Of a DNA stretch of 64,000 nt, positions 51,874 to 61,295 are shown one piece after another (position 1 is the stretch's first letter; each line of letters opens with the position of its first letter). The DNA lies in assembly GCF_001647285.1 (NCBI RefSeq), contig NZ_LRML01000004.1, forward strand, positions 434,001 to 498,000, written 5' to 3'. This DNA comes from Rufibacter roseus (GTDB lineage: Bacteria > Bacteroidota > Bacteroidia > Cytophagales > Hymenobacteraceae). The notes under the pieces are model-generated. The model was not told where the DNA came from. It was given only the letters and a program-made list of their open reading frames with translations, and did no database searches. A program made the translations under genes and the position numbers.

Positions 51874-53244
51874 CTATTTTTCTGCTTTCTCGGTTTTCTC
51901 TTGCTTTGCACCTGATGCACTTCCGTTGGCAGATCCCACATAATCAGGCGGGAAAGCGTTTAACTGACGCCATACCTCATACCAAATAGGCACATCGTTA
52001 AGCATGACCCAACCATAGGCGCCCGATCCCACCCTGATGGCTTCAGGCCATGGCGCAACATCTGGGTCAGGCACTACCAGAATACGGTACATCCCTTGGC
52101 TGTCAAGATTATCAATTACCGCCACTTTACCTCCAAAGGTTCCAAAACCTACACCTGGCCAACCTGAAAACACCAATGCGGGCCAGCCCTCAAATTGAAT
52201 TCGCACCGGGCGACCTATATCCAATAAAGGCATATCCATAGGGGCTACATACAACTCCACGGCCAACTGTGGGTTGGCAGGCATAATGCTGGCAATTGGT
52301 TCTCCTTCTTTCACGGTTTCGCCAATACCCGCCTTCAGCGCCCTGACGATATATCCGTCCTGCGGAGCAGTAACCTGGTAGAAACCGCTCCGGACTTGGG
52401 TGCTGGCGTATTCACTGCGCATTTTAGAGATTTCGCCGCGGGCATCCTGCACATAGGCTAATGTAGAATTCAGGTCAGAACGGGCCTTGGAAATTTTATC
52501 CTGATACTCGGCCTGCAATGAATTTAATTCGATGCGGGCATTTTGCAGCTCATTCCGGCTGATGTTCATTTTGTTTTGGGTACTCAATAGCTTGGCTTGC
52601 ACTTCCTGAAACTTGAGCCGGCGGCTCTCCAACTCCGTCAGAGATTTAAGCCCTTGGGCGTACAGTTTCTCCTGTCGGGCAAACTGGTCTGCCGCAATCT
52701 GAAACTCAATCTGCAGGGCGGCTAAGTCAGCACTGTCGCTTCTTACTTTCAGGGCGGCCTGCTGTACTTTGTTCCGAGCCTTCTGTAAGCTCAACTGCAA
52801 GCCTTCCTGCAGGGCCTCAATCTGATTCCTGAGAGCCGCTACTTTATCTTGAGTGGCTTCAAGGCTTCCTTCCTTTGCCTGTACCTGCTCCCCTAAACGA
52901 TCTAACAGCTGTGGGTCAAAGTATTTTTCCTTTATCTCAGAGAGCACAATGATGGTATCTCCTTTTTTCACACGCTGCCCTTCCTGTACCCGCCACTCTT
53001 CTATACGTCCGGCAATGGTGGTATGCACCGTCTGGGGGCGGTCTTGTGCCTGCAGTGTAGTCACAGAACCCGCTGAGCGGATATTTTGGGTCCAAGGCAG
53101 CCAGCCAGCCAAGAATATAATGGTGAATAGCGCCACGCACCAGTACACCAGGTTCTTGGCCATGCGGGGCTTGCTCACCAACTTAAAGGAGTTAAATTGC
53201 TCCCACTCCTCTTTATATAAAAACTTCGTTTTTGACTTAGCCAT
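51874..53244 (-). CDS. HlyD-family periplasmic adaptor
   Basis: The 456-residue protein has one membrane helix (WCVALFTIIFLAGWLPW, about 32-50), an N-terminal half of the lipoyl/barrel domain (TIAGRIEEWRVQEGQRVKKG), a long coiled coil (about 115-260), the second half (TAPQDGYIVRALKAGIGETV) and a beta-barrel (about 325-420). It joins an ABC transporter in the inner membrane to TolC. The start overlaps the ABC stop by one base (TAATG), so coupling is strict. A Lys/Glu-rich tail follows an aromatic stretch. The adaptor is intact in all visible motifs. Confidence 0.9.
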   Translation of the reverse strand: MAKSKTKFLYKEEWEQFNSFKLVSKPRMAKNLVYWCVALFTIIFLAGWLPWTQNIRSAGSVTTLQAQDRPQTVHTTIAGRIEEWRVQEGQRVKKGDTIIVLSEIKEKYFDPQLLDRLGEQVQAKEGSLEATQDKVAALRNQIEALQEGLQLSLQKARNKVQQAALKVRSDSADLAALQIEFQIAADQFARQEKLYAQGLKSLTELESRRLKFQEVQAKLLSTQNKMNISRNELQNARIELNSLQAEYQDKISKARSDLNSTLAYVQDARGEISKMRSEYASTQVRSGFYQVTAPQDGYIVRALKAGIGETVKEGEPIASIMPANPQLAVELYVAPMDMPLLDIGRPVRIQFEGWPALVFSGWPGVGFGTFGGKVAVIDNLDSQGMYRILVVPDPDVAPWPEAIRVGSGAYGWVMLNDVPIWYEVWRQLNAFPPDYVGSANGSASGAKQEKTEKAEK

Positions 53245-54968
53245 TACAGAATATTTTTCAACTCGCCACTGGCGGCTTCTTCACTTGACACTTCTCGTAT
53301 AATCTGTCCGTTTTGCATGAGCACCACGCGGTGGCACTGGTTCATTACAGCTGACTCATTGGAAATAACAATGACCGTCCAGGGCATGTCAGGAGCTAAT
53401 ACCCGCTTTGCTACCCGCTCACGCAGAACAGAGTTTACATCGGGCAGGAAGTTATCGAGCAGAAGCAGTTTGGGGCGACTGGCAATGCTACGAGCCAGAG
53501 CCAATCGCTGCGCAATGGCCTCCGGCATGTCTAGGGCATGGCTCCTGATTTGGGTCTGCAGCCCATTTGGCAAGTCCTGTATGTATTCAGAAAGCTCAAC
53601 GCACTCTATTGCCCACAGCACATCTTCTAATGAGACATCTGGCTGCCCCAAAGTAATGTTCTCCAATATGGTTCCCTCAAAGGCCACTCCGGGCAAAAGG
53701 TAAAGCCCAATTTGCTCATGCAGCGTTTCAGGGTCGTACTCACGGAGCGACAAGCCATTGCACACCACCACCCCCTCATAGTCTGTTAAAATACCTGAGA
53801 GAATTTGCAGAAGGGTGGAACGGCCCGCCTGCTGCGCACCAGCCAGGCAAAGTTTTTCATTGGGCGCAACGGTCAAGTTTACTCCCCTTAAAGCCACTCT
53901 GCCAGATCCCGTGTACTTATATCTTACGTCCTTTATCTGCAGAGAAATACTTTGCTCAATAGTGGGGTTGCCGGTAGAAAGCTCTCTTCTTTCTTCGGTT
54001 GGAAGGTCGGTTACGCCGCCTAACTTCTCCAGGCTAGTGAGCACATCATACACCACGTCTAGCTTCACCAACAATTTCTCAATGGCGTTGATAATCAAAA
54101 TGATGATGATTTCAGAGGCGACAAACTGACCTAAGTTTATTTCCCGGTTTACTAACAACAGGCTTCCCATCAGCAATAAACTAGCCGTGATGATGGTCTT
54201 GAAACCCACAAAGGAAATGTATTGCATCATGAGCACCCTGAAATGTGACTCACGGGCTTTCAGATAACCGCTGGTATAGTAATCGGTTTTCTCTAGTGAC
54301 AGCTTTTCATGCGAAGCTGATTTGAATACAGTGATGTTACGGGCCACCTCTTCAAGCCAATGCACCAGTTTGTACTTATATTTTGACTCTTCCAGACTGG
54401 TGCGCATGCCTTGCGGGCTAGTCACACGCATGATAAAAATCAGGATAGCGATAAGCAGAATACCAAAGACAATGAAATATGGGTGGTAAAAAGAAAGCAA
54501 TACTAACCCAAATACTATTTGAATGGCGGCGGCTGAAAAATCTGTCAGAAACTTAGCGAGACCCTTTTGCAGAGATATGACATCAAAAAAGCGGTTCATC
54601 ATCTCGGGCAGGTTCTGGAAAGCCAGTTGCCGACCATCAATCTGCGTTAGATGGGTGGAAAACTGAAATGCCTTGGTAGCGAAAATACGCTGCTGTATGG
54701 TTTCAACCAATGAAAGCTGCATCACCTGAAGTCCGCCTACCACCAGCACTCCCACCACAATAAATATTATTAATACAGAAACCGAGGTCACCAACTGCCC
54801 ACCAGACACGAACCCGATGAGGCTCTGTATACCCAAAGGCAGAGACAGGTTCACCAAGCCTGAAAAGATGGCATATATGTAGATGTAGCCAATCACCCTC
54901 TTTTCAGAGGCGAGCAATTCCATGAAACGTTTAATTGGGCTAGGGCTAGACGTTGTCTTTTTTGCCAT
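53244..54968 (-). CDS. ABC exporter half-transporter with degenerate ATPase motifs
   Basis: The 574-residue protein has a six-helix ABC membrane domain (about 20-310) and an ATP-binding domain (about 345-574). In the latter, Walker A reads GAQQAGRST (377-385): the invariant lysine is R383. The signature LSGGQ is replaced by DMPEA around 480-484. Walker B is LLLLDNFL, with N506 where the catalytic glutamate is expected. The switch histidine is N537 (VISNES). The fold and the reading frame are intact, so it is not a simple pseudogene. It probably cannot hydrolyse ATP like PstB (60531), which has all motifs. It lies in a tetR-ABC-hlyD-tolC operon. Confidence 0.9.
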   Translation of the reverse strand: MAKKTTSSPSPIKRFMELLASEKRVIGYIYIYAIFSGLVNLSLPLGIQSLIGFVSGGQLVTSVSVLIIFIVVGVLVVGGLQVMQLSLVETIQQRIFATKAFQFSTHLTQIDGRQLAFQNLPEMMNRFFDVISLQKGLAKFLTDFSAAAIQIVFGLVLLSFYHPYFIVFGILLIAILIFIMRVTSPQGMRTSLEESKYKYKLVHWLEEVARNITVFKSASHEKLSLEKTDYYTSGYLKARESHFRVLMMQYISFVGFKTIITASLLLMGSLLLVNREINLGQFVASEIIIILIINAIEKLLVKLDVVYDVLTSLEKLGGVTDLPTEERRELSTGNPTIEQSISLQIKDVRYKYTGSGRVALRGVNLTVAPNEKLCLAGAQQAGRSTLLQILSGILTDYEGVVVCNGLSLREYDPETLHEQIGLYLLPGVAFEGTILENITLGQPDVSLEDVLWAIECVELSEYIQDLPNGLQTQIRSHALDMPEAIAQRLALARSIASRPKLLLLDNFLPDVNSVLRERVAKRVLAPDMPWTVIVISNESAVMNQCHRVVLMQNGQIIREVSSEEAASGELKNIL

Positions 54969-54976
54969 AGTATGTA

Positions 54977-55678
54977 TTAGCTAACAGGCGAAAAGTTAGT
55001 GCCTTTTATGGCATCAAATGCTAAATGAGTAAGAAATTGCACCAGGTTGCTCTCTTGCCCTTGTTGCGTTCCTTTTACTTCAGTGAGGGATGGCAAATGT
55101 TGCGAAAAGAACCATTGTTTACGTGCCGCCTCAAACAAAGTACTGACTAAGGCGTGCGGGTACGGGTAGCTTGGGTTTAGTTCTAGTACTACCATAGCTA
55201 TTTTATGGCACAAGCTTTTATAATCTTGAAAAAGGCCGTTGTTGTTGTCATTGTCTACCTCTTTGGTCAGGTAAGCTTTTGAAGCCTCCACTACCACAAT
55301 GCGCGACAGGCTTTCAATATCAAGATAAGACGAGAGCTGCTCTTTTATTTGATACTGCGCCAAAATTCTGATAAAAATCCTCAGCCTTTCAGCGGCATCA
55401 GCCACGTTGTGGGTGTGGTAGCAAATGCGGTAGTCTAACCAGTTCCAGTACCAAGAAACTAGATAGAGCAACAGCTTGTGTTTGTTCTCAAAGTACCTGT
55501 AAACTGAGGCCTCGGTAGAATGTATGCACTGCGCCAACTTTTTAAAAGTAAATTGCTCAAAGCCCAGTTCATCAATTAGCCTAATGCTTTCTTTTAATAT
55601 GGCTCTACCCAAATCAGTTTGGTCTGGGTCACGCAAGTACAGCTTATGGTTTAACTCTATTCTTATTCCTGCGCTCAT
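54977..55678 (-). CDS. TetR/AcrR-family transcriptional regulator
   Basis: The 233-residue protein has a TetR helix-turn-helix at about 27-73 (LGRAILKESIRLIDELG, FTFKKLAQCIHSTEASVYRY and FENKHKLLLYLVSWYWNW). The larger C-terminal part (about 80-225) is the ligand and dimer domain. TetR regulators usually repress the adjacent genes until a ligand binds. It is 8 bases upstream of the ABC gene on the same strand, so the whole export operon is probably under its control. The palindrome ATAGTA-a-TACTAT upstream (55726-55738) is a candidate operator. Ligand unknown. Confidence 0.9.
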   Translation of the reverse strand: MSAGIRIELNHKLYLRDPDQTDLGRAILKESIRLIDELGFEQFTFKKLAQCIHSTEASVYRYFENKHKLLLYLVSWYWNWLDYRICYHTHNVADAAERLRIFIRILAQYQIKEQLSSYLDIESLSRIVVVEASKAYLTKEVDNDNNNGLFQDYKSLCHKIAMVVLELNPSYPYPHALVSTLFEAARKQWFFSQHLPSLTEVKGTQQGQESNLVQFLTHLAFDAIKGTNFSPVS

Positions 55679-56020: not shown

Positions 56021-56162
56021 CACTAGAATAGAAAAGTAATTGCCTGCTGACTACAGACAAAACCGCTCTTTTCTTAAACAAAACGTTTAGTACATATAAA
56101 CGGCAACATTGAGACTGACTACCTCAATGCTCCGCAAAAGAATTTTCAATTTCATTTTGCTT

Positions 56163-57431
56163 ATGTTCTCACCCATAAACAAAAGAAAGCCTGGCTCCCT
56201 ATTGGCTATAGGCTTTGTTTTAGTATCCTCGGTACTGTTACATGCACCAATTGCCAGCGCTCAAAACGTGGTTGTCCCCGACACTGTGAATACTTCTTCT
56301 GCACCTGCTAAGCCGGCAAAAGACAAATGGTATGACAAAATCTCTTTGAGAGGCTACGTTCAAATCAGATACAACCGCCTGCTGGAAACAAACCCGCAGC
56401 TCAAGACTGATTATGACAAATCTGTCGGAGACAAAGGCGGCTTTTTAATTAGGCGGGCACGTTTAGTTTTCAGCGGTGACATTCATGACAGGGTGTACAT
56501 GTACATTCAGCCAGACTTGGCCTCGTCTCCATCCGGTAGCCCTTCTTTGCACTTTGTACAGCTCCGCGACGCGTACTTTGACATAGCTCTTGACAAAGAA
56601 AAAGAATACCGCCTTCGGATTGGCCAAAGTAAAATTCCGTATGGTTTTGAGAACATGCAGTCTAGCCAGAACCGCCTGACCCAAGACCGAAACGATGCGT
56701 TGAACAGCGCCCTGCCTAACGAGCGGGACTTAGGTCTGATGTTTTACTGGGCCCCAGCTCACATAAGAGAAAGATTTAGGGAGTTGGCCAGCAGAAATTA
56801 TAAAGGCTCTGGCGATTACGGCGTGTTTGGCCTGGGAATCTATAACGGGCAAACTGCCAACCGACCCGAAGCAAACAACAACCAGCACGTAGTTGCTCGC
56901 CTAAGTTACCCCTTCGCTTTTCAGAACGGGCAAATCATAGAGCCAGGCATACAGGCTTATACTGGCTTGTACACCGTAACCTCAGACCAATTGAGCAGCT
57001 CCACTATAAAGGGAGGAGATTTTATTGATCGCCGTGTAGCCGCCAGTTTTGTGCTTTACCCGCAGCCGTTTGGCCTGCAGGCAGAGTACAACGTGGGCGA
57101 GGGCCCAGAATTTGACCCTGAAACTAATACCATACAAGTAAAACCGCTGGAGGGAGGTTATGTGCAAGCCATGTATCTCATCAATGCCGCCGACCAAACC
57201 TTCATTCCTTTCGTTAAGGTACAGTACTATGAGGGCGGAAAGAAAGCCGAAACAGATGCCCGTCACAGCAATGTGTATGAAACGGAAGTAGGATTAGAAT
57301 GGCAACCGCTGTCGGCGTTTGAACTGGCTGCCCAGTATACTATTTCTGACCGTACTACCCAAGATGGCCGAAACCTTTACAACCGCCAGCACGGCCAGCT
57401 CTTGAGGCTGCAGGCGCAGTTTAACTTTTAA
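56163..57431 (+). CDS. Phosphate-selective porin O/P family protein
   Basis: The 422-residue protein has a signal peptide (PGSLLAIGFVLVSSVLLHAP, cleaved after ASA), which suits ATG 56163; ATG 56127 or TTG 56109 are less likely, since they add a second hydrophobic stretch. It then has a 16-strand barrel of the OprO/OprP type: ISLRGYVQIRYNRLLETNP, GGFLIRRARLVFSGDIHD, LRIGQSKIPYGFENMQSS, and ends in RQHGQLLRLQAQFNF. The porin allows phosphate or polyphosphate to cross the outer membrane. It begins the phosphate locus. Confidence 0.9.
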   Translation: MFSPINKRKPGSLLAIGFVLVSSVLLHAPIASAQNVVVPDTVNTSSAPAKPAKDKWYDKISLRGYVQIRYNRLLETNPQLKTDYDKSVGDKGGFLIRRARLVFSGDIHDRVYMYIQPDLASSPSGSPSLHFVQLRDAYFDIALDKEKEYRLRIGQSKIPYGFENMQSSQNRLTQDRNDALNSALPNERDLGLMFYWAPAHIRERFRELASRNYKGSGDYGVFGLGIYNGQTANRPEANNNQHVVARLSYPFAFQNGQIIEPGIQAYTGLYTVTSDQLSSSTIKGGDFIDRRVAASFVLYPQPFGLQAEYNVGEGPEFDPETNTIQVKPLEGGYVQAMYLINAADQTFIPFVKVQYYEGGKKAETDARHSNVYETEVGLEWQPLSAFELAAQYTISDRTTQDGRNLYNRQHGQLLRLQAQFNF

Positions 57432-57617
57432 CCAGTGGCCGCCCGCGCCCCCATTATGAGCGGTAATCAGCAACGTCTAACTTAACTAAAATCACAGGCT
57501 CTATAAAATTACAACCAGGGCTCCAGAGAAATTTACTATTTAACCCATTACCCTAGGCCCAGGCAGCCTATACACCAATTGCCCAATGTTCATAGACAAC
57601 GCGAATTACAATTCATT

Positions 57618-58610
57618 ATGAAAACCAACACTTCAGTTCTCACTCAATTAAAAGCAACGTTGCTGGTATGCGGCACTTTGTTTCTGGCCTCTTGCGGAGG
57701 CAATTCTAGTGAATCCGGCGGTACCGGAAGCGACTTAACCGGAAGCATTCAGATAGATGGTTCCTCTACCGTATTCCCTATTACCGAGGCAGTAGCCGAG
57801 GAATTCAGAGCCGAGGCTCCAGATGTGAAAGTTACCGTAGGGGTATCTGGCACCGGCGGTGGCTTCAAGAAGTTTGTGCGCGGCGAAATAGACATCAACA
57901 ACTCTTCCCGCTCCATTAAAGAAGAAGAGGCAAAGCAGGCCCAGGAGAACAACATTTCTTACCTTGAACTGTCTGTTACTTATGATGGGCTTACCGTGGT
58001 GGTACACCCAGAAAACAACTGGGCTACCAGCATGACAGTGGAAGAGTTGAAGAAAATCTGGGAACCGGCTGCCCAAGGCAAAATCAAACGCTGGAACCAA
58101 ATCCGCCCGGAGTGGCCTAACGAAGAAATTCACTTGTTTGGCGCCGGTGTTGAGTCAGGTACCTATGATTACTTTACGGAGGCTGTGGTAGGCAAGAGCC
58201 ACGCCAGCCGCGGCGACTACACCGCTTCTGAAGACGACAACGTGTTGGTACAGGGCGTGTCAACAGACAAAAACGGCTTAGGCTTCTTTGGGTACGCGTA
58301 TTATCTGGAGAACAAAGACAAATTGAAGGCTATTACCATTGACGACCAAAACGACGCGAACGGCAAAGGCGCTATCATGCCTAGTGTAGAAACCGTAAAA
58401 AATGGAACTTATGCTCCTCTTTCCAGACCGTTGTTCATCTATGTGAACTCCAAAGCAGCTGCCAGACCAGAAGTGGTGAAGTTCATTAACTTCTATTTAG
58501 ACAACGCCAGTGAACTAAGTAGCGAGGTGGGCTACATCCCGCTTCCGGCCGAAGAGCTTCAGAAGCAGAAGCAGAAGTTCAACGACTTTGTTACTGGTCT
58601 TAAAAAGTAA
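57618..58610 (+). CDS. pstS: Phosphate ABC transporter substrate-binding lipoprotein
   Basis: The 330-residue protein has a lipobox ([12 protein letters not shown]) and the PstS fold. Phosphate-binding loops are [30 protein letters not shown] and SSRSIKEEE. Further conserved parts are [32 protein letters not shown], and the end [20 protein letters not shown]. It captures inorganic phosphate in the periplasm and hands it to PstCA. ATG 57618 fits the lipobox. It is followed by palindrome R, then pstC. Confidence 0.95.
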
Positions 58611-58625
58611 ACGGTAAGGCAAGTT

Positions 58626-58679
58626 CCGCCTGCTGTTTTAGGCTTGTTTCTAGAAAAACAGCCCTAAAACAGCAGGCGG
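58626..58679 (+). repeat. Palindrome family member R, inside the pst operon
   Basis: CCGCCTGCTGTTTTAGG pairs with its exact complement at the other end (54 bases in all), with a core of GCTTGTTT/AAAACAGCCC. It separates pstS from pstC, a place where partial termination or processing would raise PstS relative to the membrane parts. Confidence 0.7.
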
Positions 58680-58800
58680 GTCTTCTCCCCTACAAAGTTT
58701 GCCACGTTAATAGCACTATCTCTGTCAGCCCATTTTATTTTACAGACCTGGCCTTTGGTAGCCGCCGCTACAGTTGTGCCAGGTATAACACACCAGCGGT

Positions 58801-59676
58801 TTGAAAGCATCGGAGAAAATTATTGAGTTCTTGCTGTGGCTCGCAGCCGCCATCACAATTCTCATCACTGTGGGGATTATATGGGTGCTGCTATCGGGTT
58901 CGCTCCCGTTCTTTCAGGAGGTTTCTATTGTAGAATTCCTGACGGCCAAGCAGTGGACGCCCCTTTTTGCGCAGAAGCGCTTTGGCATTATGCCGTTAGT
59001 GGCGGGCACTTTCCTGACTACCGCCATTGCCATTGCCGTGGCTTTGCCCATTGGCCTGACTATTGCCATTTACTTGAATGAGTATGCCCCCAGCCGCCTG
59101 AAACGCACTATTAAACCATTACTGGAGATTTTGGCTACCATTCCAACAGTAGTCTATGGGTTCTTCGCCTTAACAGTGGTCACGCCGTTTTTGCAGAGCT
59201 TTATTCCTGGTCTGGCTGGTTTTAACGCCTTGTCGCCCGGTATAGTCATGGGTATTATGATCATCCCCATGATTTCCTCATTAAGCGAAGACGCCATCAG
59301 TTCGGTGCCTAAGTCTTTGCGCGAGGCTTCTTACGGCATGGGTTCTACCCGCTTGCAGACGGCTTTCAGGGTGATGGTGCCGGCGGCCAGCTCAGGTATT
59401 ATTGTGTCCGTGATTCTGGCTATCTCCAGGGCCGTGGGCGAAACCATGATTGTAGCCATTGCCGCCGGTCAGCAGCCACGCCTCACGCTTAACCCTTTGG
59501 TGCCTGTAGAAACCATTACCACCTATATTGTGCAGGTGAGTTTAGGTGATGTGCCGCATGGCTCATTGGAGTACCGCACCATTTTTGCGGCGGGTATTGT
59601 GCTGTTCATTTTCACCTTTGCGCTGAACAACCTCAGCTTCTGGATCAAAAAGAAATATCAGGAGAAGTATGACTAA
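58801..59676 (+). CDS. pstC: Phosphate ABC transporter permease PstC
   Basis: The 291-residue protein has six membrane helices, with the ABC permease loop [20 protein letters not shown] and [14 protein letters not shown]. Conserved segments are [40 protein letters not shown] and [14 protein letters not shown]. It forms the membrane channel with PstA. The start is TTG at 58801, as no ATG or GTG is available in frame near the first helix. The stop overlaps pstA by 8 bases (ATGACTAA). Confidence 0.93.
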
Positions 59677-60526
59677 TTCTACCCGCAACCGCATCAAAGA
59701 CAAAGCCTTCCAGTTCTTCGGCATCTTTTGCATGCTCATTGGGCTGGTGTTTCTGGGGGCGCTTCTAGTTGACATCATCACGCGTGGTCTTGGCCGCATT
59801 GACTGGGATTTCCTGACTAGCCTGCCCTCCCGCCGCGCCAGCCGTTCAGGTATTCTCACTGCCTGGGCGGGCACCCTCTGGATTCTGCTCCTGACCAGCC
59901 TCATCGCGTTTCCGCTGGGTATTTCGGCGGGTGTGTATTTAGAGGAGTATACCAAGAAAAGCAAACTGTCTTCTTTCCTGGAAATCAACATTGCAAACCT
60001 GGCGGGCGTACCATCCATTATCTACGGTTTGTTGGGCCTTGAGGTATTTGTGCGCCAGATGCAGATGGGTGCCAGCTTATTGGCCGGAGCCTTGACCCTT
60101 TCATTGCTGGTGTTGCCCATTGTCATTGTAACCACCCGTGAGGCCCTGAAAGCAGTTCCACCCAGCGTACGGCAGGGCTCCTTTGCCCTTGGTGCCACCA
60201 AGTGGCAAACTACTTGGCGGCAGGTGCTGCCGGCATCTTTTGGCGGTATTCTAACGGGTGTTATTCTGGCGCTTTCACGAGCCGTGGGCGAAGCCGCTCC
60301 GCTAATTGTGGTGGGTGCCTTGGCCTATGTGCCTTTTGTGCCCTCCTCACCCAATGATGAGTTTACCGTGTTGCCCATTCAGATCTTTAACTGGACCTCA
60401 AGACCACAGGCCGAGTTCCTGGTGAATGCAGCGGCGGCCATCATTATGTTATTATTCATCACCTTCCTGCTCAATGGCGTAGCCGTATACCTGCGCAACA
60501 AACAGCAGAAAAAAATAAAGTGGTAA
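59669..60526 (+). CDS. pstA: Phosphate ABC transporter permease PstA
   Basis: The 285-residue protein is the second permease. Membrane helices include [20 protein letters not shown] and [18 protein letters not shown]. The coupling loop is [20 protein letters not shown], followed by [20 protein letters not shown]. Also seen are [19 protein letters not shown] and [19 protein letters not shown]. The ATG overlaps the pstC stop, and pstB follows 4 bases after the stop, so all are cotranslated. Confidence 0.95.
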
Positions 60527-60530
60527 GCGA

Positions 60531-61295
60531 ATGAGCAAAAAACCTATCAAGGTAGAGGCGAAAGATGTGAACGCCTACTACGGCGACTTCCACGCCATTA
60601 AAGGCATTAATATTGCCATGGAAGAGAATACTGTCACGGCCTTTATTGGCCCGTCTGGTTGCGGTAAATCTACGTTCCTCCGCATTTTCAACCGCATGAA
60701 CGATTACATTGATGGTTTTAAAACCGAAGGAGAGATTCTGCTGGACGGCCAAAACATCTACGCCAAAAACGTTCAGGTAGACGAACTCCGCAAGAAAGTG
60801 GGCATGGTGTTCCAAAAACCAAACCCTTTCCCTAAAAGCATCTACGAGAATGTGGTGTATGGCCTGAAGATTCAGGGTGTGTCTAATAAAGCAGCCTTAA
60901 CAGAAGCCGCCGAAAGAGCGTTGAAGCAAGCCGCGCTCTGGAACGAGGTAAAGGACAACTTGAACAAATCAGCCCTGGCTTTGTCTGGGGGGCAGCAGCA
61001 GCGCTTGTGTATTGCCCGTGCTTTGGCTATTTCGCCGTCGGTGCTTTTGATGGATGAACCGGCCTCCGCTTTGGACCCTATCTCCACGGCTAAGATTGAG
61101 GAGCTCATTCATGAGCTGAAAGAGCAGTACACCATAGTTATTGTGACCCACAACATGCAGCAGGCGGCCCGGGTAAGTGACACCACTGCTTTCTTCTACA
61201 TGGGTGAACTGGTGGAGCATGCCAAAACCAAAACCATGTTCACCAACCCCAAAGACAGCCGTACCCAAGACTATATTACGGGCCGGTTTGGTTAA
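60531..61295 (+). CDS. pstB: Phosphate ABC transporter ATP-binding protein PstB
   Basis: The 254-residue protein has all ABC motifs intact: Walker [10 protein letters not shown], signature [15 protein letters not shown], Walker [13 protein letters not shown] and the switch histidine in [16 protein letters not shown]. It powers phosphate import with ATP in the cytosol. These motifs contrast with the degenerate ones of the ABC exporter at 53244. The end, [13 protein letters not shown], is typical of PstB. Palindrome S follows the stop by about 15 bases. Confidence 0.97.

Follow-up and report, generated by a model that had tools for sequence, protein, structure and literature searches.

A Bacteroidota family of ABC-derived tripartite exporters in which the ATPase is degenerate or absent

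Introduction

ATP-binding cassette (ABC) exporters are defined by their ATPase. Transport by the exporter membrane domain standing alone has so far been argued from engineered truncations, LmrA-MD and MsbA-MD, which lack the nucleotide-binding domain (NBD). According to two reports, these constructs move substrates with the proton gradient, and in LmrA a glutamate of the sixth transmembrane helix (TM6), E314, is needed for the pH dependence (PMC4979069, PMC2704374). Neither a natural NBD-less ABC exporter nor a description of the family considered here was found in the portions of the open-licence literature that were searched, and the word 'Bacteroidetes' was not found in the accessible part of the review PMC8277102. 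The family in question is represented in a 64,000-nucleotide (nt) stretch of DNA from Rufibacter roseus (RefSeq assembly GCF_001647285.1, contig NZ_LRML01000004.1, positions 434,001 to 498,000; this whole stretch is referred to as the window), which encodes an ABC exporter within a TetR-ABC-HlyD-TolC operon (Table 1). An earlier note on the window had described the ATPase motifs of this exporter as degenerate, and had proposed that it works without ATP hydrolysis, pairs with another ABC subunit, or acts as a scaffold or sensor.

How, then, might an exporter persist once the ATPase that defines it has gone? Of the three options the first is the best supported, given a degeneracy that runs through the whole family and a branch that has shed the NBD while keeping HlyD and TolC. 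On sequence evidence, the window protein is on balance probably a member of a Bacteroidota-wide, ABC-derived lineage of tripartite exporters (TetR-ABC-HlyD-TolC) that would be independent of ATP hydrolysis.

Degeneration of the ATPase

Alignment of the window protein with five exporters of the same genome shows that the Walker A lysine is replaced by Arg383 (GAQQAGRST), that Walker B Asp505 is retained but the catalytic glutamate is Asn506, and that the switch histidine is Asn537, as had been read from the sequence; the loss of the Q-loop glutamine (Leu425) is a further change beyond that list. The LSGGQ signature is likewise lost, although its position had been placed one residue off, at DMPEA, where the alignment gives 481-MPEAI-485. 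PstB, encoded in the same window, does offer the contrast that had been pointed out, with every ATPase motif present, including the TH. The absence of a frameshift was also borne out, in that a search of the organism's own genome found the frame open with no internal stop codon.

A search with the window protein as query, which may miss more distant canonical kin, gave relatives in 128 of the 150 genomes from its own family (E <= 1e-60), 181 of 241 from the order (1e-50) and 97 of 395 from the phylum (1e-50). Motifs were read in the proteins of 80 regions and of the search loci, not in every matching genome (the 128, 97 and 181 are overlapping sets), with the weak matches L007 and L008 and 20 duplicates excluded. 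Among the 110 distinct full-length proteins of the core family, the window's included and L094 kept as it is with its changed frame, LSGGQ is present in none, SGG in none and the triad of Walker A lysine, catalytic glutamate and switch histidine in none. The glutamate survives in 10 of these proteins and the histidine in 4, never both together, and within the genus Rufibacter the Walker lysine has become arginine in 14 of 15 proteins. Since the core family is degenerate at the same places, neither chance nor the recent decay of one gene accounts for the pattern; the close homologues with canonical motifs that the earlier note had named as the sign of recent decay were not found in the comparison, and decay of a single gene is ruled out.

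Outside the core stands a sister clade of 13 proteins, a placement for which the root is weakly supported while the branch separating the core is long and well supported. Here the lysine and the Walker B aspartate are kept in 13/13, the glutamate in 12/13 and the histidine in 8/13, with LSGGQ in 0/13, the nearest approach being LSTGQ in two. Eight ordinary exporters used as controls have the lysine and histidine in 8/8, the glutamate in 7/8 and LSGGQ in 5/8, the rest carrying LSVGQ, LSGGE or LSVGE. The sequences thus describe a graded loss of the ATPase, from a sister clade without LSGGQ, to a core without the glutamate and histidine, to Rufibacter without the lysine and finally to a nested clade without the NBD.

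Several members depart from the common architecture. In L142, L170 and L171, a sub-branch of the sister clade, neither an HlyD nor a TolC of this family accompanies the ABC gene within the stretch examined, and in L170 and L171 that gene is preceded by a shared open reading frame (ORF) of 496-780 amino acids (aa). Two copies look broken: in L094 (4616-6208) the frame changes in the NBD after the signature region, and in L095 (4767-5981), which the first tree omitted, the ABC gene is in two pieces with other ORFs between. Many relatives (L043, L044, L048, L049, L053, L096, L098, L105, L106 and others) carry an N-terminal extension of about 150 residues ahead of the membrane domain, a region gained or lost repeatedly on the membrane-domain tree (five changes, four of them forced). 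The six longer relatives scanned gave no Pfam match in this region, so that an identity as a C39 peptidase is without Pfam support.

A natural NBD-less branch

Forty-three relatives, of 329-374 aa, stop just after the membrane domain. In all 43 the HlyD gene lies directly downstream on the same strand, its first-start ORF overlapping the stop of the NBD-less gene in 36 (mostly by 8 nt) and standing 34-118 nt away in the other 7, and every locus that extends far enough (26 of 26) has TolC next. The NBD-less members come from taxa coded f1 (the window's own family, genera g5 and g6), f3 and f4, and include Taibaiella chishuiensis (Chitinophagaceae). With the window frame open and every NBD-less ORF directly followed by HlyD, a frameshift artefact is ruled out.

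In a tree of the membrane domain the 37 non-redundant NBD-less rows form a single clade (support 100/99), which groups with the full-length but degenerate L200 and L120/L203 (100/99) inside the core family; L200 itself has lost LSGGQ, the catalytic glutamate and the histidine. This tree left out the eight ordinary exporters, 13 sister-clade rows, L057, L059, L095 and near-identical rows. A single clade points to one loss of the NBD. Several independent losses were considered and rejected: a first tree gave two changes, the second of which was due to L059, a contig-edge fragment, and without L059 and with more rows one clade resulted.

Could the missing domain be encoded elsewhere? When the NBD of L200 was used to search 22 genomes, it was found in two full-length controls at 529 and 210 bits, and in the 20 NBD-less genomes the best score among the matches listed was at most 101.6 bits, in open frames of 599-1011 codons that are read as ordinary fused exporters. 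A split gene was accordingly not found in these 20 genomes, among the matches listed. G091 has a 233-codon ABC frame with 58.8 bits to the family NBD, which is of ordinary strength.

The two forms tend to exclude each other. An NBD-less query matches 127 of the 150 f1 genomes with one copy each, 32 NBD-less and 95 full-length by hand count and none with both, a count blind to any second copy whose match is weaker than E 1e-40; genus g6 alone has 30 of each, again counted by hand. For g6, the hypergeometric probability of no overlap among 65-68 genomes is about 1e-13 to 3e-12 if kinship is ignored. On an RpoB tree of 30 hand-picked genomes (15 per form; 26 from g6 and 4 from g5; 10 of 27 inner branches poorly resolved) the form switches at least 8 times, with 5 switches forced by well-supported branches. 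Shuffled labels give a mean of 10.2 switches, and 50-62 of 500 shuffles are as low as the real tree, so that form tracks species kinship only weakly. Each form is nevertheless coherent on its own tree, and the genes flanking NBD-less and full-length loci differ, which argues for whole operons having been gained and lost, or for two old copies having been lost differentially, and not for deletion in place. The two forms replace each other among the species of one genus and look interchangeable, and such a genus makes the question whether an exporter membrane domain can transport by itself directly testable in harmless, culturable bacteria.

Selective constraint and predicted structure

In ordinary exporters compared among themselves (n = 6) the NBD is the better conserved part, with 47.3% identity against 20.7% for the membrane domain. 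Among 85 other core members of the present family the values are 32.3% for the NBD and 49.1% for the membrane domain. Within Rufibacter, the median identity over 105 pairs is 82.1% for the membrane domain and 60.9% for the NBD, and the NBD is better conserved in 0/105, whereas for an MsbA-like control exporter, taken from 16 genomes of that genus, both domains stand at 85.5%, with the NBD better conserved in 72/120 pairs. Domain conservation is therefore inverted relative to the same-genus control. Position by position, 109 full-length proteins (L094 being left out) have one residue in at least 95% of rows at 57 of 334 membrane-domain positions and 9 of 238 NBD positions, and are invariant at 16 membrane-domain positions and at three in the NBD, G399, N437 and R493. 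A stronger statement, that no invariant column falls outside the membrane domain, was dropped, as that alignment had included the NBD-less L058; without it the invariant positions number 52 for the membrane domain and 11 for the NBD.

Ratios of nonsynonymous to synonymous substitution (dN/dS) for the 14 least diverged of the 105 Rufibacter pairs are 0.003-0.11 in the membrane domain and 0.04-0.26 in the NBD, so that the NBD evolves faster and yet remains under purifying selection in Rufibacter. HlyD has 78 positions with the same residue in at least 93% of rows both beside NBD-less and beside full-length ABC genes, a comparison confined to rows above 550 bits with duplicates kept. By sequence, the membrane domain and HlyD are the most conserved parts of the system.

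The AlphaFold model of the window protein (m1c74d21812f2) has a mean predicted local distance difference test score (pLDDT) of 79.1 and a predicted template modelling score of 0.50, and its NBD is predicted to be folded, most 10-residue blocks having a pLDDT of 73-92. The ten best Foldseek rows have TMq values of 0.80-0.88, headed by PCAT1, TmrAB and TM287/288. For the NBD-less L058, too, the model (mean pLDDT 85.2) has the fold of an exporter, matching TmrAB, HlyB and PCAT1 with TMq values of up to 0.82. Across both forms, thirty-six positions of the membrane domain are all but invariant. At Glu286, in predicted TM6, glutamate is found in 43/43 NBD-less proteins, in 108/110 full-length proteins (the other two having aspartate) and in 12/13 of the sister clade, and in none of the eight ordinary exporters, which have I, L, V, A, L, A, F and G. 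There are 19 membrane-domain sites conserved in full-length proteins and changed in NBD-less ones, of which only 3 or 4 lie near coupling helix 2: E207 (80% of full-length proteins, 8/43 NBD-less), R210 (89%, 8/43) and L223 (77%, 3/43).

Energisation of the exporter

With the ATPase degenerate throughout the family and deleted in one branch, and with the rest of the pump strongly selected, the pump probably runs without hydrolysing ATP. The positions invariant in both forms, Glu286 and the precedent of MsbA-MD and LmrA-MD together make export through HlyD and TolC without ATP hydrolysis the most likely mode of action, and ion coupling plausible. In such a scheme a dimer of membrane domains would form the transport path together with HlyD and TolC, and the energy would come from an ion-motive force or from a downhill gradient, a natural counterpart of the engineered proteins, with TM6 Glu286 as the leading candidate for ion coupling. 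The pseudo-NBD, where present, would be a structural or regulatory remnant, perhaps still binding nucleotide where Walker A is intact and less probably so in Rufibacter, and the TetR regulator may sense the substrate of the exporter.

A number of observations weigh against this account. The Walker A lysine is retained in 93 of the 110 full-length core proteins, in which ATP binding without hydrolysis may matter, and purifying selection together with the three invariant NBD residues indicates that the NBD has some role. The ten least diverged NBD-less pairs have a dN/dS of 0.18-0.36, higher than full-length membrane domains, which could reflect relaxed constraint. Exclusivity of the two forms is not universal, the f3 genomes G602 and G659 holding both an NBD-less gene and a full-length paralogue. 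Glu286 is no marker of ATPase loss, given its presence in a sister clade that may hydrolyse ATP, and its likeness to LmrA E314 is one of location in TM6 only. The coupling helices, too, speak in sequence terms against a clean loss of NBD docking: the region of helix 2 is weakly relaxed in NBD-less proteins (29 of 299 windows are as low) and that of helix 1 is not relaxed.

Of the alternatives, the one that survives best, though unlikely, is a scaffold or passive conduit, in which the membrane domain would serve only as anchor and gate for HlyD-TolC, with the substrate running down its gradient or being powered by a different system. It is well served by the retention of HlyD (43/43) and TolC (26/26 of the long loci) beside NBD-less genes and by the concentration of conservation in the membrane domain and HlyD, but the complete exporter fold predicted for the NBD-less protein and the conserved charged residues in its predicted helices seem more than an anchor would need.

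Somewhat less likely again is an ATP-binding switch, in which ATP would be bound but not hydrolysed by the pseudo-NBD, the domain thereby gating the pump as a regulator rather than an engine, a proposal that overlaps with ATP-hydrolysis-independent export. The widespread Walker lysine and the low dN/dS of the NBD fit it, but with the lysine replaced in 14/15 Rufibacter proteins and the domain missing from a whole branch it could apply at best to part of the family.

An ATPase acting in trans, another ABC protein lending its NBD or forming a heterodimer with this subunit, is improbable. The genomes do contain other ABC exporters, the region of coupling helix 1 shows no relaxation, and an ABC-ATPase-like ORF lies near the operon in individual loci (L133, L151 and L161, with an ordinary exporter close to the operon in L161). 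Against this, across 83 loci the operon has no recurrent second ABC gene as a neighbour (8 loci being without an ABC call, an antisense ORF having been chosen), and no family-like stand-alone NBD was seen in the 20 NBD-less genomes, among the matches listed. Beside coupling helix 2, NBD-less proteins have lost E207, R210 and L223, yet these are 3 of 19 such sites and the region is only weakly relaxed. Moreover, in a subunit that has lost both Walker and signature residues neither composite site would be canonical even in a heterodimer, and the pairing with another ABC subunit once suggested for the window protein is weakened on both counts. Slow decay, a general loss of function that would make the degenerate genes relics, could call on the broken-looking L094 and L095 and on the 22 of 150 family genomes without a match at threshold but is very improbable in view of the low dN/dS of both domains in the 14 least diverged Rufibacter pairs and of the order's genomes, 181 of 241 of which give a match.

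ATP-independent export has a bolder form, put forward tentatively and rather more doubtful than the general case, in which a natural clade of ABC exporters lost its ATPase and became a secondary-active, ion-driven pump of the inner membrane, still plugged into HlyD-TolC. If true, this would be a new energetic class of tripartite exporter, and the surviving intermediates, lacking in turn the signature, the catalytic glutamate and histidine, the Walker lysine and the domain, would record the conversion of a primary into a secondary pump. Nature seems to have run the experiment that LmrA-MD and MsbA-MD represent, as a natural series of graded losses ending in NBD-less exporters with HlyD and TolC retained.

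Organisation of the operon

The genes of the window operon are tightly packed in the order TetR-ABC-HlyD-TolC, the second encoding a half-size exporter whose start is 8 nt from TetR and whose end overlaps HlyD by 1 nt (Table 1). The ORFs were taken from the first possible start codon and overlaps may be overstated; that of tolC overlaps hlyD by 68 nt, so that the true tolC start probably lies further in. HlyD and TolC are normal-looking partners, as had been supposed, by their model matches. In Pfam the ABC protein matches ABC_tran (50.4 bits) and ABC_membrane (PF00664, 46.3 bits), both above cut-offs, and PF00664 and the fold matches identify a six-helix exporter membrane domain of the ABCB/PCAT type. 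The best 25 of its 142 NCBIfam ABC-protein matches are all below cut-offs, with bacteriocin, NHLM and HlyB-type exporters at the top.

Table 1 Features of the exporter operon in the window
Feature	Position	Strand	Remarks
Degenerate ABC exporter, membrane domain and pseudo-NBD, 574 aa	53244..54968	-	ATG start, open frame; Pfam, alignment
Transmembrane domain of the ABC protein, about residues 1-334	53967..54968	-	more conserved part
Pseudo-NBD, about residues 337-574	53244..53960	-	motifs gone except Walker B Asp505
HlyD-type periplasmic adaptor, 456 aa	51874..53244	-	HlyD/biotin-lipoyl models above cut-off
TolC-type outer membrane factor, first-start ORF 513 aa	50400..51941	-	OEP model above cut-off
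TetR-family regulator	54977..55678	-	TetR_N model above cut-off; 8 nt upstream of the ABC gene

A TetR relative occupies the same place in many full-length loci. In some f3 NBD-less operons (L133:3427-4107, L190, L191, L193-L197) TetR is retained but divergent, and the TetR of this exporter family was not found in 20 f1 NBD-less loci. No cargo or partner gene recurs across genera within about 2-6 kb on each side, ORFs below 90 aa and distant cargo not having been sought; within one genus, some genes do accompany the NBD-less operons repeatedly, by eye those for a beta-barrel, a metallo-hydrolase and a solute symporter, and these are interpreted as local synteny. Adjoining the window operon are, by eye, a porin-like gene (56109-57431) and then a phosphate-type binding protein, two permeases and PstB (57579-61200), and in L042 a similar porin ORF likewise lies beside the operon.

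Comparison with known transport systems

The closest described relatives are the type I secretion and PCAT-type systems (HlyB-HlyD-TolC, PCAT1), with PCAT1, TmrAB, TM287/288 and HlyB among the structural and sequence matches. The likeness lies in the fold of the membrane domain and in an operon that brings together the ABC protein, the HlyD adaptor and TolC, as type I secretion systems require. The window family differs in lacking the ATPase motif set, and in one branch the NBD itself, in the absence of a cargo gene found beside the operon and in an N-terminal extra region without a Pfam match in the six proteins scanned.

With the heterodimeric degenerate-site exporters (TM287/288, TmrAB, BmrCD, MsRv1273c/72c) the family shares the replacement of the catalytic glutamate in a half-transporter, but the window operon has no partner subunit, and the Walker and signature sides are both lost, leaving no complete site. 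With LmrA-MD and MsbA-MD it shares an exporter membrane domain without an NBD, and a TM6 glutamate. Those proteins are laboratory truncations of active ABC exporters, whereas the NBD-less forms described here are natural and occur in many species, with proton coupling as a candidate only; the window protein itself, unlike LmrA-MD, keeps its NBD, and it is its relatives that have dispensed with the domain.

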